Below the pieces are notes generated by a model. The model saw only the letters and a list, made by a program, of their open reading frames with translations. It did no database searches and was not told the DNA's origin. A DNA stretch of 33,323 nt from Fibrobacter succinogenes (GTDB taxonomy: Bacteria > Fibrobacterota > Fibrobacteria > Fibrobacterales > Fibrobacteraceae), in the NCBI GenBank assembly GCA_902767785.1, contig CACXIR010000023.1:1-33323 (forward strand). The letters are read 5' to 3'. The position numbers and the translations under genes were made by a program. This document shows, piece after piece, positions 15,592 to 18,737 of this stretch. The stretch's first letter is position 1. Every line of letters begins with the position of its first letter.

Positions 15592-16671
15592 ATGGCTATT
15601 ACCCGAAAGACACAGAGAAAGTTCAGGTCCGTATGTTTTTACGTACTCTGCTGGATCTGCGTCGCCTTGGGGATAGCCTCCTTGCAGATGTTTAGGGACT
15701 TTGGACGCCTGGACCCGGAACCCCTTTTGAAAATGTTCCAGTTCGCCCTGTTCATGGGACTATCCCACGGGATATACGACGTTATCGTCCTAAAGGACGA
15801 AAGGGATTGCAGGCCCGTGTGGAAGGCCTTTTTGGTGCGAAACCTGTACTTCATAGCGGCCATATGCGCAAGCATTGTCCTGTGTACGCTACTCTTCAAA
15901 GCCTCTGCCACAGAGGGCGTCGTAAACGAGATTTCCCTGGCGGCCATTTGCGACAACCTGAAGTCCCACCAAGTCCAGGAACAGGCCATACTCTTCTTCC
16001 TTGCCGCCTACCTCATCACCTTTGTCCGGTCGGTCCATAAAAAGTTTGGCCCCAGGGTGTTCTGGAACGTGCTGCTGGGAAAATCCCAGGAACCCATGGA
16101 AGAGGAACGAGTCTTTATGTTCATAGACCTGAGGCATTCCACCTCCATGGCCGAGGAACTGGGCCACACGGTCTACAGCAGCCTGCTGCGGGACTACTAC
16201 CGCCTGCTTTCCAACTGCTGCGAAGAGAACCACGGCGAAATCTACCAGATTGCAGGGGACGGGGCGTTTCTAACCTGGAAAATGTCCTCTTGCCGAAAAA
16301 AAGCCCGGCCGGTAAGCTGTTTCGAGGACTTTGCCGAGGGCTTAAGGCTCATGGGACCCAAGTTCCAGAAGAAATACGGGGTTATTCCCGCCTTCAAGGC
16401 AGGGGTCCACTGCGGCAAGGTGGTGGCCACGGAAGTGGGCAACTTCGGCAGCGAAATGGCGTACCACGGAGACGTGCTGAACACCACCTCCAGGATCCAG
16501 GGACTATGCACCAAATTGGGGCAGGAATTCTTGATTTCCGAGGATTTCTACCGGGAATTGCACATGCCAATCCCCCACGGATACATCGCCAAAAAGGAAG
16601 GATATTTCGAGTTAAAGGGCAAAAAACACGAAATTCTGCTATTTTCTCTGCAAAAGCCCTTGACAATCTAA
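15592..16671 (+). CDS. Membrane-bound class III adenylate/guanylate cyclase
   Basis: A 359-residue protein with about four N-terminal transmembrane segments (within residues 12-150) and a C-terminal class III nucleotidyl cyclase domain. The first metal site is Asp179 in FMFIDLRHST and the second Asp223 in IYQIAGDGAFLTW; the transition-state residues are Asn297 and Arg301 in YHGDVLNTTSRIQ. The residue that is usually the base-selecting Lys before GD appears to be Gln219, so whether ATP or GTP is used cannot be stated. The likely product is cAMP or cGMP. It follows the small membrane protein at 4 bases. The promoter of the downstream tRNA overlaps its last codons. Confidence 0.9.
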   Translation: MAITRKTQRKFRSVCFYVLCWICVALGIASLQMFRDFGRLDPEPLLKMFQFALFMGLSHGIYDVIVLKDERDCRPVWKAFLVRNLYFIAAICASIVLCTLLFKASATEGVVNEISLAAICDNLKSHQVQEQAILFFLAAYLITFVRSVHKKFGPRVFWNVLLGKSQEPMEEERVFMFIDLRHSTSMAEELGHTVYSSLLRDYYRLLSNCCEENHGEIYQIAGDGAFLTWKMSSCRKKARPVSCFEDFAEGLRLMGPKFQKKYGVIPAFKAGVHCGKVVATEVGNFGSEMAYHGDVLNTTSRIQGLCTKLGQEFLISEDFYRELHMPIPHGYIAKKEGYFELKGKKHEILLFSLQKPLTI

Positions 16672-16700: not shown

Positions 16701-16773
<73 letters not shown>

Positions 16774-16783
16774 CGAAAAAAGA

Positions 16784-16816
16784 AAAACCACCCATTTGGG
16801 TGGTTTTCTTTTTTTT
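16784..16816 (+). terminator. Rho-independent terminator after tRNA-Gly
   Basis: AAAACCACCC and GGGTGGTTTT pair perfectly over 10 bases around an ATTT loop, followed by C and eight T's. It ends the tRNA transcript. Confidence 0.92.
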
Positions 16817-17215
16817 GCGTCGGGATAAAAAGGGACTCGGAGCCGAGAAGAGGGTGCGACTGAAATTTTTCATATGAGAACGAAGTGAACATAATTGAAA
16901 AATTTCAGCACTTGAGGCGCAAGCCTCAAGCCCGTAGGACGAAGCATCGGCTCGCAAGGCGAGTGACCGATGCTGAGTATTCCCTTTTCCCGCTCGAATA
17001 CAAAATGCCCAGCTTTTGCTGGGCTTTTTTGTATTCGAATGAGAGTAGGGGTGGACCCGAGACCCCTTGGGGGAGAGGGGCCGGCAAAAACCACCGTGCG
17101 CGTAGCGCATGAAATAGGTGGTTTTTGAGCTTGACACGAACGAGTGAGTGTCGAGCCCGAAGGGTTGCTGAGCAGCCGCGCTAGCGGAGACTGCGAAGCA
17201 ACATTCCCTTTTCCA
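16817..17215. repeat. Palindrome array with repeated tRNA-Gly 3' ends
   Basis: No credible protein gene lies here. The 18 bases TCCCTTTTCCCGCTCGAA from the tRNA 3' end (16760) recur at 16981 and, truncated, near 17205, giving spacings of 221 and 224 bases. An inverted partial copy, AAAAGGGACTCGG, lies at 16828-16840. Between the copies are perfect inverted repeats: CTGAAATTTTTCA at 16860-16872 with 16896-16908; CTTGAGGC/GCCTCAAG with a GCAA loop at 16911-16930; AGCATCGG/CCGATGCT enclosing CTCGC/GCGAG at 16943-16974; AAAAACCACC/GGTGGTTTTT at 17086-17126; GCTTGACAC/GTGTCGAGC at 17129-17156; and GTTGCT/AGCAAC at 17164-17202. It could be a structured RNA, a repeat family, or remnants of insertions at the tRNA. 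Confidence 0.75.
16995..17037. terminator. Two-storey hairpin terminator after the second tRNA-end copy
   Basis: The outer stem is CGAATACAAAA (16995-17005) with TTTTGTATTCG (17027-17037). The inner stem is GCCCAGC (17007-17013) with GCTGGGC (17018-17024), followed by six T's. Its position after the repeated tRNA 3' end mirrors that of the terminator after the real tRNA. Confidence 0.75.
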
Positions 17216-17295
17216 TTTATCAATAGCTGCTCCTCTCTCCTTAAAAAAATATATTTTCCAAAAAAGGACTAAACCATTTTTCAAGGACACCCAAT

Positions 17296-17718
17296 ATGCC
17301 GTTCTGCCCTAATTGCGGAAAGCTGCTTGCAGATGATAACGCCTTCTGCCCTTCGTGTGGACACAATGCCACGACCACAACGACAATTCTACCTCCCCAA
17401 AAAAGCAAGGAAGCCGCTGGGCTGCTAGGCCTTTTCTTCGGCAGCCTTGGAGTTCACGACTTTTACGTGGGCAAGGTGACCCATGGCGTAATCAAGCTGG
17501 TCCTCACTTTCACCGTACTCGGTTACTTCGTTTCTGCAATTTGGAGGTTCGTGGACGTCATTTGCATTATCACTGGGAGTTACCATGACAACTGGAACCG
17601 CCCCCTTACGGGGGATGCAACCATCACCAAGATACTGCTGGTTCTTCCCATATTGTTCTTTATCTTGGCGATTGCCATCACCATCTTTGTCATATCCCCC
17701 CTGTTTATCGTAGCCTAG
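17296..17718 (+). CDS. Zinc-ribbon and TM2-domain membrane protein
   Basis: A 140-residue protein. The N-terminus is a zinc ribbon with two CXXC pairs (Cys4/Cys7 and Cys18/Cys21). It is followed by a Thr-rich stretch and a TM2 domain (LLGLFFGSLGVHDFYVGKVTHGVIKLVLTF... then IWRFVDVICIITGSYHDNWNRPL), in which two membrane helices are joined by a short turn with the typical G-hD-FY motif. A further hydrophobic segment ends the chain. The start is supported by AAGGA 8 bases before the ATG. TM2 proteins of this kind are widespread and mostly of unknown role. It may share a transcript with the rhomboid gene 23 bases downstream. Confidence 0.88.
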   Translation: MPFCPNCGKLLADDNAFCPSCGHNATTTTTILPPQKSKEAAGLLGLFFGSLGVHDFYVGKVTHGVIKLVLTFTVLGYFVSAIWRFVDVICIITGSYHDNWNRPLTGDATITKILLVLPILFFILAIAITIFVISPLFIVA

Positions 17719-17741: not shown

Positions 17742-18737
17742 ATGCCACGCCTGATGTCGCCGCTTAGGCCCCGCTACATGCGCAAGCCTCCTGAAGGTCC
17801 TGCCCCGGACCTGCCTAAGGACGCAGCGACTCCTTCCCCATTTCCGTCAGTGCAGCCTGCGGAACCGGAGGCACCCGAGTACCCCGAAACCCTTTGCGTT
17901 TCCGAGGGAACCTTTCGGCAGGTCCGGGACGATAGCCTTGTGCTGCTTTCCCAAGGAATAGAACACCGGCTCTTGCGTTCAGAAGAGGGGCCATTCCAGA
18001 TTTTCATTGTGCCAGAATTCGAGGCGGCGGCAAGGCAGCAACTGAGCCTGTACCACCAAGAAAATCCGCCCAAGGAAGAAAACCCACCCCTGCCCTTGAG
18101 TTTCAGTCTGCAGCCCCTGTGGGTGCTGCTAGCCCCCATGCTGGTGACCCTGCTGGACTTTTCGGAAAAGGTGAACCTGCACGGGCCGGGGCTCTCTGAC
18201 GCAGCCAAGGTCTTGAAGGGAGAATGGTGGCGGAGCCTTACCGCCCAGACCCTCCACGGAGATGCCCGCCACCTGGCCTCCAACCTGCTTTGCGGCTACA
18301 TCGTGATGAACATGATCACCTTCCGCATACCGCTCCTCCGACTTGCTCCCTTCATTGCCGTGGCCGCCGCCATAGCAAACATTTGCGTCTCGGCCACAGT
18401 GCAAACCGACTTCCGCTCCCTGGGGTTTTCCACCTTCGTATTTGCCGCCATCGGCTGCCTTGCGGTCATAGAATTCCGGCTCATGCCCAAGGAATCCCAC
18501 GGGATGCTCCGGCGGTTCGCGCCCCTGTGCGGCGCAGCCTCCCTGGCGGTATTCCTGGGACTTGGAGAAAACGCAGACATCCTAGGACATGCCTACGGGT
18601 TTTTAGCAGGGCTGTTCTGCGGATTTATACCCAATAAAAAAAGCCTGCGCTGGGGTTCTCCCCTTTCTAGCGCAGACGGATTAGGCTTGTTGTTCTATTA
18701 CGGGCTTTACCTGCTGGCCTGGAAAATGGCCCTCTAG
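17742..18737 (+). CDS. Rhomboid family intramembrane serine protease
   Basis: A 331-residue protein. Residues 1-120 are a Pro-rich, apparently cytosolic N-terminal part. From about 125 there are six or so membrane helices with rhomboid landmarks: GEWWRSLTAQTLHGDARHLASNLL (160-183, the loop and helix-2 His/Asn region), the serine motif GFSTF with Ser230 in place of the usual GxSG, and GHAYGFLAG with catalytic His283. The Ser/His pair is kept, so activity is plausible, but the Gly after the Ser is replaced by Thr. The stop codon overlaps that of nrdG on the other strand (shared CTAG). Confidence 0.85.
   Translation: MPRLMSPLRPRYMRKPPEGPAPDLPKDAATPSPFPSVQPAEPEAPEYPETLCVSEGTFRQVRDDSLVLLSQGIEHRLLRSEEGPFQIFIVPEFEAAARQQLSLYHQENPPKEENPPLPLSFSLQPLWVLLAPMLVTLLDFSEKVNLHGPGLSDAAKVLKGEWWRSLTAQTLHGDARHLASNLLCGYIVMNMITFRIPLLRLAPFIAVAAAIANICVSATVQTDFRSLGFSTFVFAAIGCLAVIEFRLMPKESHGMLRRFAPLCGAASLAVFLGLGENADILGHAYGFLAGLFCGFIPNKKSLRWGSPLSSADGLGLLFYYGLYLLAWKMAL

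Follow-up and report, generated by a model that had tools for sequence, protein, structure and literature searches.

A tandem of two structured units resembling the rtT repeats of E. coli follows a tRNA-Gly gene in Fibrobacter succinogenes

Directly behind a tRNA-Gly(GCC) gene of Fibrobacter succinogenes lies a tandem of two structured elements, each of which closes with a copy of the 3' end of this tRNA. We analyzed this array in a window of 33,323 nucleotides (contig CACXIR010000023.1, positions 1 to 33,323) and consider, with a probability of roughly two in three, that it is an RtT-like two-unit tandem that makes a structured RNA by read-through and releases it at the tail copy. The parts of this view that concern array anatomy, the own-tail rule, covariation, relatives across phyla, copy-number change, and loss are supported directly by the results below.

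An initial annotation made from the sequence alone had noted that the tRNA 3' end recurs at a spacing of 221 and 224 nt, and the motif (A/G)TTCCCTTTTCC is indeed found at 16758, 16979, and 17203. The features of the array and its flanks are as follows, with scores from R1, a covariance model that we built from seven Gly units:

15592-16671, plus strand: adenylate/guanylate cyclase catalytic domain protein, upstream flank, ending 29 nt before the tRNA
16701-16774, plus strand: tRNA-Gly(GCC) (ARAGORN; Rfam tRNA, 66 bits)
16776-16815, plus strand: intrinsic-terminator hairpin in the gap between tRNA-Gly(GCC) and unit 1 (inverted repeat with T run)
16828-16844, plus strand: inverted copy of the tRNA T-stem 3' strand/tail (unit 1)
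16850-16986, plus strand: unit 1 core (R1, 69.5 bits; fold z -6.4)
16860-16908, plus strand: hairpin H1 of unit 1 (perfect arms, 13 nt)
16911-16930, plus strand: hairpin H2 of unit 1 with GCAA loop (sequence, R1 alignment)
16931-16939, plus strand: conserved CCCGnAGGn motif of unit 1 (sequence)
16943-16974, plus strand: hairpin H3 of unit 1 (sequence, R1 alignment)
16981-16995, plus strand: tail copy D' closing unit 1, TCCCTTTTCCCGCTC (exact 15-nt match to the tRNA tail)
16996-17036, plus strand: second terminator-like palindrome, start of unit 2 (sequence, inverted repeat)
17075-17210, plus strand: unit 2 core with another H1 (AAAACCACC type; R1, 85.4 bits; fold z -6.7)
17203-17214, plus strand: truncated tail copy closing unit 2, ATTCCCTTTTCC (motif repeat)
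17296-17718, plus strand: zinc-ribbon TM2-domain protein, flanking gene
17742-18737, plus strand: rhomboid protein, flanking gene

The tRNA gene does not encode CCA, and the repeated tail derives from its final 15 nt (16760-16774). From a copy of the T-stem 5' strand (GAGGG), the core of unit 1 runs through H1, H2, CCCGnAGGn, and H3 to the T-stem 3' strand, with these hairpins occupying the position of the T-loop. Each interval holds a 130-nt block of covarying hairpins plus a terminator. The terminator hairpin noted earlier is present in both, and their stems, looped by GCAA, GTA, or AAG, are near-perfect. The inverted tRNA end that had been pointed out was recovered as a 17-nt arm with 94% complementarity to 16751-16767. 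When the folding of the two units was compared to that of dinucleotide shuffles, none of 200 shuffles was as good, and a search of the window against Rfam at the gathering threshold reported the tRNA alone. An AAGGAG site on the minus strand is present as described (17237-17242); it is missing behind related arrays, and we gave it no weight. A minus-strand gene using this unconserved site was considered and rejected, its 192-aa frame being without a Pfam match.

The initial annotation had made compensatory changes in the stems the test of a structured RNA, and such changes are massive: Across 38 sequences, E. coli among them, pairing holds in 92% of cells, and double changes are seen in 38 of the 42 pairs. 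The covariation score of these sequences is 0.506, compared to 0.142 for shuffled and 0.05-0.08 for slid partners, in an alignment that was fitted to the structure and therefore leans toward it, with a large margin. With a plain MAFFT alignment, the divergence of the sequences was too great for RNAalifold to recover H1 and H3. Automated scoring of the GAAC/GTTC hairpin beside the inverted tail was noisy, and we place no reliance on it. Over 114 distinct units, the module helices comprise 3556 Watson-Crick, 74 GT, and 32 AC cells. Wobble pairs are thus scarcer than expected of an RNA, and helices this close to perfect would also suit palindromes that are maintained perfect at the DNA level. The excess of GT over AC favors a plus-strand RNA only weakly, short of deciding between RNA and DNA readings.

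Similar arrays, which the initial annotation had proposed to look for in Fibrobacter, are found throughout the genus. BLASTN with the array matched 22 of 25 Fibrobacter genomes and none of 16 genomes outside of the genus, and these genus-wide matches rule out a local duplication private to the window genome. The R1 model detected units in 54 of 61 Fibrobacter genomes (at most 14 per genome), behind tRNA genes, and in four of the 41 genera of the phylum, all from one family. Among 20 array loci scanned for tRNAs, every tRNA found was a tRNA-Gly, and contig ends interrupt both of the loci that yielded no tRNA. Of the 30 top loci of the genus, 29 include tRNA-Gly, and the remaining one is the orphan array described next. 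Save for one orphan array (L064/L105) and the contig-end cases, the Fibrobacter units were always behind a tRNA at the sites that we read. At the orphan locus (L105; G054:C46:18500-23500, minus strand), a Gly-type multi-unit array stands without a tRNA: The promoter sequence TATAATTGGGTCACCCC of a tRNA-Gly is joined straight to the tail CCCTTTTCCCGCTC, and the tRNA body is missing. This promoter would drive the array alone, and an assembly error is possible.

The general unit consists of a terminator, an inverted tail, a copy of the T-stem 5' strand (GAGGG in Gly units, NNNNGTTCGACT elsewhere), the long hairpin H1, H2, CCCGnAGGG, H3, and the tail, i.e., the T-stem 3' strand plus the acceptor 3' strand in a form that matches the end of the tRNA. 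The hairpin module therefore takes the place of the T-loop in a truncated copy of the tRNA. Some units have a complete inverted tail and others an eroded one, and a truncated tail is frequent in array-final units. Some units at three loci (L019, L113, and L105) follow each other at 110-145 nt with no terminator between them, so the repeat does not require one.

Across the genus, units are located behind Gly(GCC/CCC), Pro(CGG/TGG), Ala, and Ser tRNAs, and the tail is always that of the unit's own tRNA, including at the weaker R1 matches behind Pro(CGG), Pro(TGG), Ala(GGC), and Ser(CGA). In the window genome, where 30 of 43 tRNA matches were read, an own-tail copy of 14-26 nt is present in the 450 nt that follow 6 of 32 distinct tRNA genes. 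For the other genes, such copies do not exceed 9 nt. Two Gly plus two Pro loci are clear members. Arg tRNAs probably also host units, and the unit at tRNA-Arg(TCT) (L043) is at best degenerate (R1, 9.3 bits). Behind tRNA-Arg(ACG) (L053; G000:C37), a 26-nt copy that includes the whole T-arm lies 177 nt downstream, and the filler is a different palindromic sequence without the CCCGnAGGG motif, perhaps reflecting another type of tail duplication.

The layout is not wholly new, contrary to what the initial annotation had suspected. Repeats at E. coli tyrT have been known for decades, and it is already known that several tRNA operons have rtT-type RNAs. The 178-bp repeats of tyrT/tyrV (rtT RNA, RttR, RF00391) show the same order of parts as the Fibrobacter units: tail, spacer, inverted tail, a T-stem 5' copy with GTTCGACT, hairpins, CCCGAAGGG, another hairpin, and a closing T-stem 3' strand plus tail, all in tandem copies behind a tRNA. 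Specifically, E. coli K-12 tyrTV reads tail, spacer, inverted tail GGGGAAGGAT, GAGAAGCTTCGACCAAGGTTCGACT, hairpins, CCCGAAGGG, hairpin, GAGTA, and ATCCTTCCCCCACCACCA, and the CCA in the tail copy is exactly where the annotated rttR RNA ends. The CCCGnAGGG motif is shared by E. coli rtT and nearly all units. However, Fibrobacter units differ from those of tyrT/tyrV by the additional long hairpin H1, by an intrinsic terminator that usually accompanies each unit and is absent at this place from the tyrT units, by the lack of an encoded CCA, and by their other tRNA hosts.

Model searches in both directions link the two groups. R1, which contains no other sequences than Fibrobacter Gly units, matches all four tyrT copies at 21-22 bits. 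Conversely, Rfam RtT, with matches over the full length of the model (1-130), gave a best score of 37.6 bits (best E-value 1.6e-5) in 41 whole Fibrobacterota genomes and reached its gathering score of 45 bits in none of them. All 12 inspected matches, which include the Pro locus of the window genome and one genome from another family of the same order, come immediately after a tRNA-Ser(CGA) or tRNA-Pro gene of the same strand, and this placement cannot be chance. The Fibrobacter units share with RtT the position directly behind a tRNA on the same strand, the tandem copies with a copy of the tRNA 3' end, the consensus hairpins, and CCCGnAGGG before the final hairpin. Judging from these sequence features, they are a distant, unannotated branch of the rtT kind rather than a new category, and we file them as RtT-like because the 45 bits that Rfam itself demands are not reached. 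We found no paper on the Fibrobacter repeats. In the largely non-subscription literature that we searched, there is no description of the branch in Fibrobacterota, of an own-tail rule that holds for different tRNA types, or of the placement at the T-loop.

For the known members, RtT RNAs are visible on Northern blots in Actinobacillus pleuropneumoniae (PMC4986893), and covariation supports the RtT helices (PMC8250186). A screen for biofilm formation and motility detected no change for RttR (PMC4606813), and a link of the rtT-type RNAs reported in E. coli and Actinobacillus to the stringent response has been suggested (PMC4986893, citing Boesl and Kersten 1991).

Beyond these cases, a search over GTDB genomes with the pattern GAGAAC-GTTCGAC-CCCGnAGGGC returned at least 119 stretches. 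Among the 119 matches listed, 73 have a tRNA on the same strand within 900 nt upstream, and 56 of these also have an exact 11-nt copy of the tail of that tRNA after the unit. The hosts among the matches listed are Enterobacterales, Xanthomonadales, Alteromonadales, other Gammaproteobacteria, Fibrobacter, and one deltaproteobacterial metagenome-assembled genome, and the tRNAs that have a matching tail or stand at unit distance include Lys, Ser, Pro, Tyr, Gln, Val, Glu, Arg, and Leu. Pattern matches in Glycomyces, Streptomyces, Rhizobiales, Clostridia, and others have no tRNA and were treated as chance. R1 finds many gammaproteobacterial units with up to 39 bits, though most of these loci had been preselected by the pattern and are weaker evidence than the matches of Rfam RtT in Fibrobacterota. 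Rfam RtT itself scores above its cut-off for units at the tRNAs for Lys, Tyr, Val, and Ser, and PGAP labels some enterobacterial units as "RtT sRNA". These enterobacterial RtT sRNAs behind tRNA-Ser (serX) and other tRNAs resemble the Fibrobacter units in their own-tail copies and variable tandem number but have an encoded CCA and a shorter module and belong to a different phylum. In the stretch that we read at serX, K-12 has two complete units plus one more tail copy, and strain JS316 has one unit. Altogether, the sequences indicate that an RtT-like class spans Gammaproteobacteria and Fibrobacterota.

Three further observations were made along the way. The tandem RtT-type units at serX are unannotated in the K-12 record (L252; NC_000913), and RefSeq annotates one in JS316. 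The deltaproteobacterial contig (L141; JAADGT010000314.1) contains a unit with an exact tail copy behind tRNA-Ser(TGA); this genome is outside of both main phyla and could be misbinned. Finally, on a series of IMG/VR contigs (L114-L131, e.g., L115:7516-8082), one to five enterobacterial units adjoin the end of a prophage contig beside the tRNA tail (attR, GGGTTCGAATCCCCCTCTCACCGCCA), with the tRNA itself absent from these contigs. Phages seem to integrate into tRNAs that bear these arrays.

The arrays vary between relatives. In other Fibrobacter, a unit type of the window may stand singly (L007 and L011), or the two types are arranged in reversed serial order (L009). The near-complete genomes G064 and G140 each have at least one tRNA-Gly without a unit, and in G145, G140, and G072 we found stubs that retain only the 5' part. 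Considering this gain, loss, shuffling, and absence, the units are dispensable and therefore without essential function. In enterobacteria, the modules behind Pro(CGG) of Enterobacter EA-1 and Pro(TGG) of Pseudescherichia vulneris are 92% identical, and the tail and terminator of each unit match its own locus. Units thus recombine, and modules can pass between loci.

The strongest rival to our reading is a selfish or mobile palindromic DNA element that resides behind tRNA genes. Its hairpins would act as DNA, either through single-strand or cruciform recognition or because template-switch correction keeps the palindromes perfect, and its insertion or gene conversion would leave the module flanked by the target's own tail. 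Such an element would account for the very few wobble pairs of either sense, for units that are gained, lost, and truncated, for a common module with local tails at the two Pro loci, and for the serial order of unit types, which changes between related species (window against L009 and L011). However, units are restricted to tRNA 3' flanks on one strand and in one orientation, GT exceeds AC in the helices as a weak pointer to an RNA strand, relatives in E. coli and A. pleuropneumoniae produce RNAs according to the literature, and no associated recombinase or transposase was identified at the loci read. On balance, we regard a purely DNA-level element as unlikely. The two readings are compatible if the element is selfish and simply exploits tRNA processing.

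Much less probable is that the units are stacked terminators that shield the next gene from the strong activity of the tRNA promoter, with the rest as a passenger. A terminator hairpin does open each unit, but this idea leaves the conserved module, the own-tail copies, and the inverted tail unexplained, and neither the E. coli tyrT units, which lack an intrinsic terminator there, nor the Fibrobacter units that adjoin without one fit it. Least credible and already largely refuted is the idea that phages or islands integrated into the tRNA again and again, with tail copies as attR scars and eroded cargo: tRNA 3' ends are common att sites and prophage ends adjoin such arrays at an enterobacterial tRNA tail, but the filler is a module that is conserved, covarying, and constant in size and not a random remnant, the layout is repeated at many tRNAs in two phyla, the array appears to lie outside of the prophage beside attR, and no integrase is encoded in the ca. 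220 nt between tail copies, where the overlapping frame matches no protein family. The degenerate chain of insertions that had been suggested for the array finds no support in its plain form, with filler that is conserved, covarying, and undecayed, but the units do expand, contract, and exchange.

Two other known systems share single traits with the array. The 3'ETS-leuZ RNA is a 3' spacer of a tRNA precursor that is released behind the tRNA at maturation and serves as an sRNA sponge. Trailers of this type are single and short, whereas the Fibrobacter units are tandem, structured, and close in a tail copy. REP/BIME elements are intergenic palindromes like the Fibrobacter units, and BIME-linked attenuators resembling rtT have been described (PMC2965389). 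However, REP elements are scattered in genomes without tRNA tails, and the Fibrobacter units, with tRNA-Gly at nearly all top loci (29/30), are not dispersed away from tRNAs but tied to their 3' flanks and to the tail of the adjacent tRNA.

How might an RtT-like array work in Fibrobacter? The earlier proposal of a structured-RNA family past the tRNA is largely right as far as genus-wide arrays behind tRNAs and compensatory change are concerned; co-transcription with the tRNA, tail processing, and any regulatory effect are inferred. Since an intrinsic terminator separates tRNA and unit, an RNA could be made only via read-through: RNA polymerase from the tRNA promoter would sometimes pass the terminator into the unit, and the module would fold in this transcript. 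The tail copy may then present a tRNA-like 3' end to tRNA-maturation nucleases and CCA addition, and processing at this site would release a stable RNA of ca. 150-220 nt as reported for E. coli rtT. Recombination between tail copies would change the arrays, and modules may now and then move between tRNA loci.

What makes these arrays interesting is the own-tail rule, which holds for different tRNAs and in both phyla. With one layout shared by many tRNAs of two phyla, what had been a local curiosity becomes a class. The rule (own tail, module at the T-loop position, and inverted tail) predicts further members and makes two ideas testable, i.e., the tail copy as a processing signal and the gain of a new tRNA tail by the module. 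More tentatively, and with the odds against it, the units could form a class of tRNA-parasitic elements at about ten tRNA types of Gammaproteobacteria and Fibrobacterota whose flanks are rewritten to match the tail of each new host tRNA. If this were true, the module would jump between tRNA genes, the matching tail would serve as an address and at the same time as a signal for RNA processing, and E. coli rtT would be one member.
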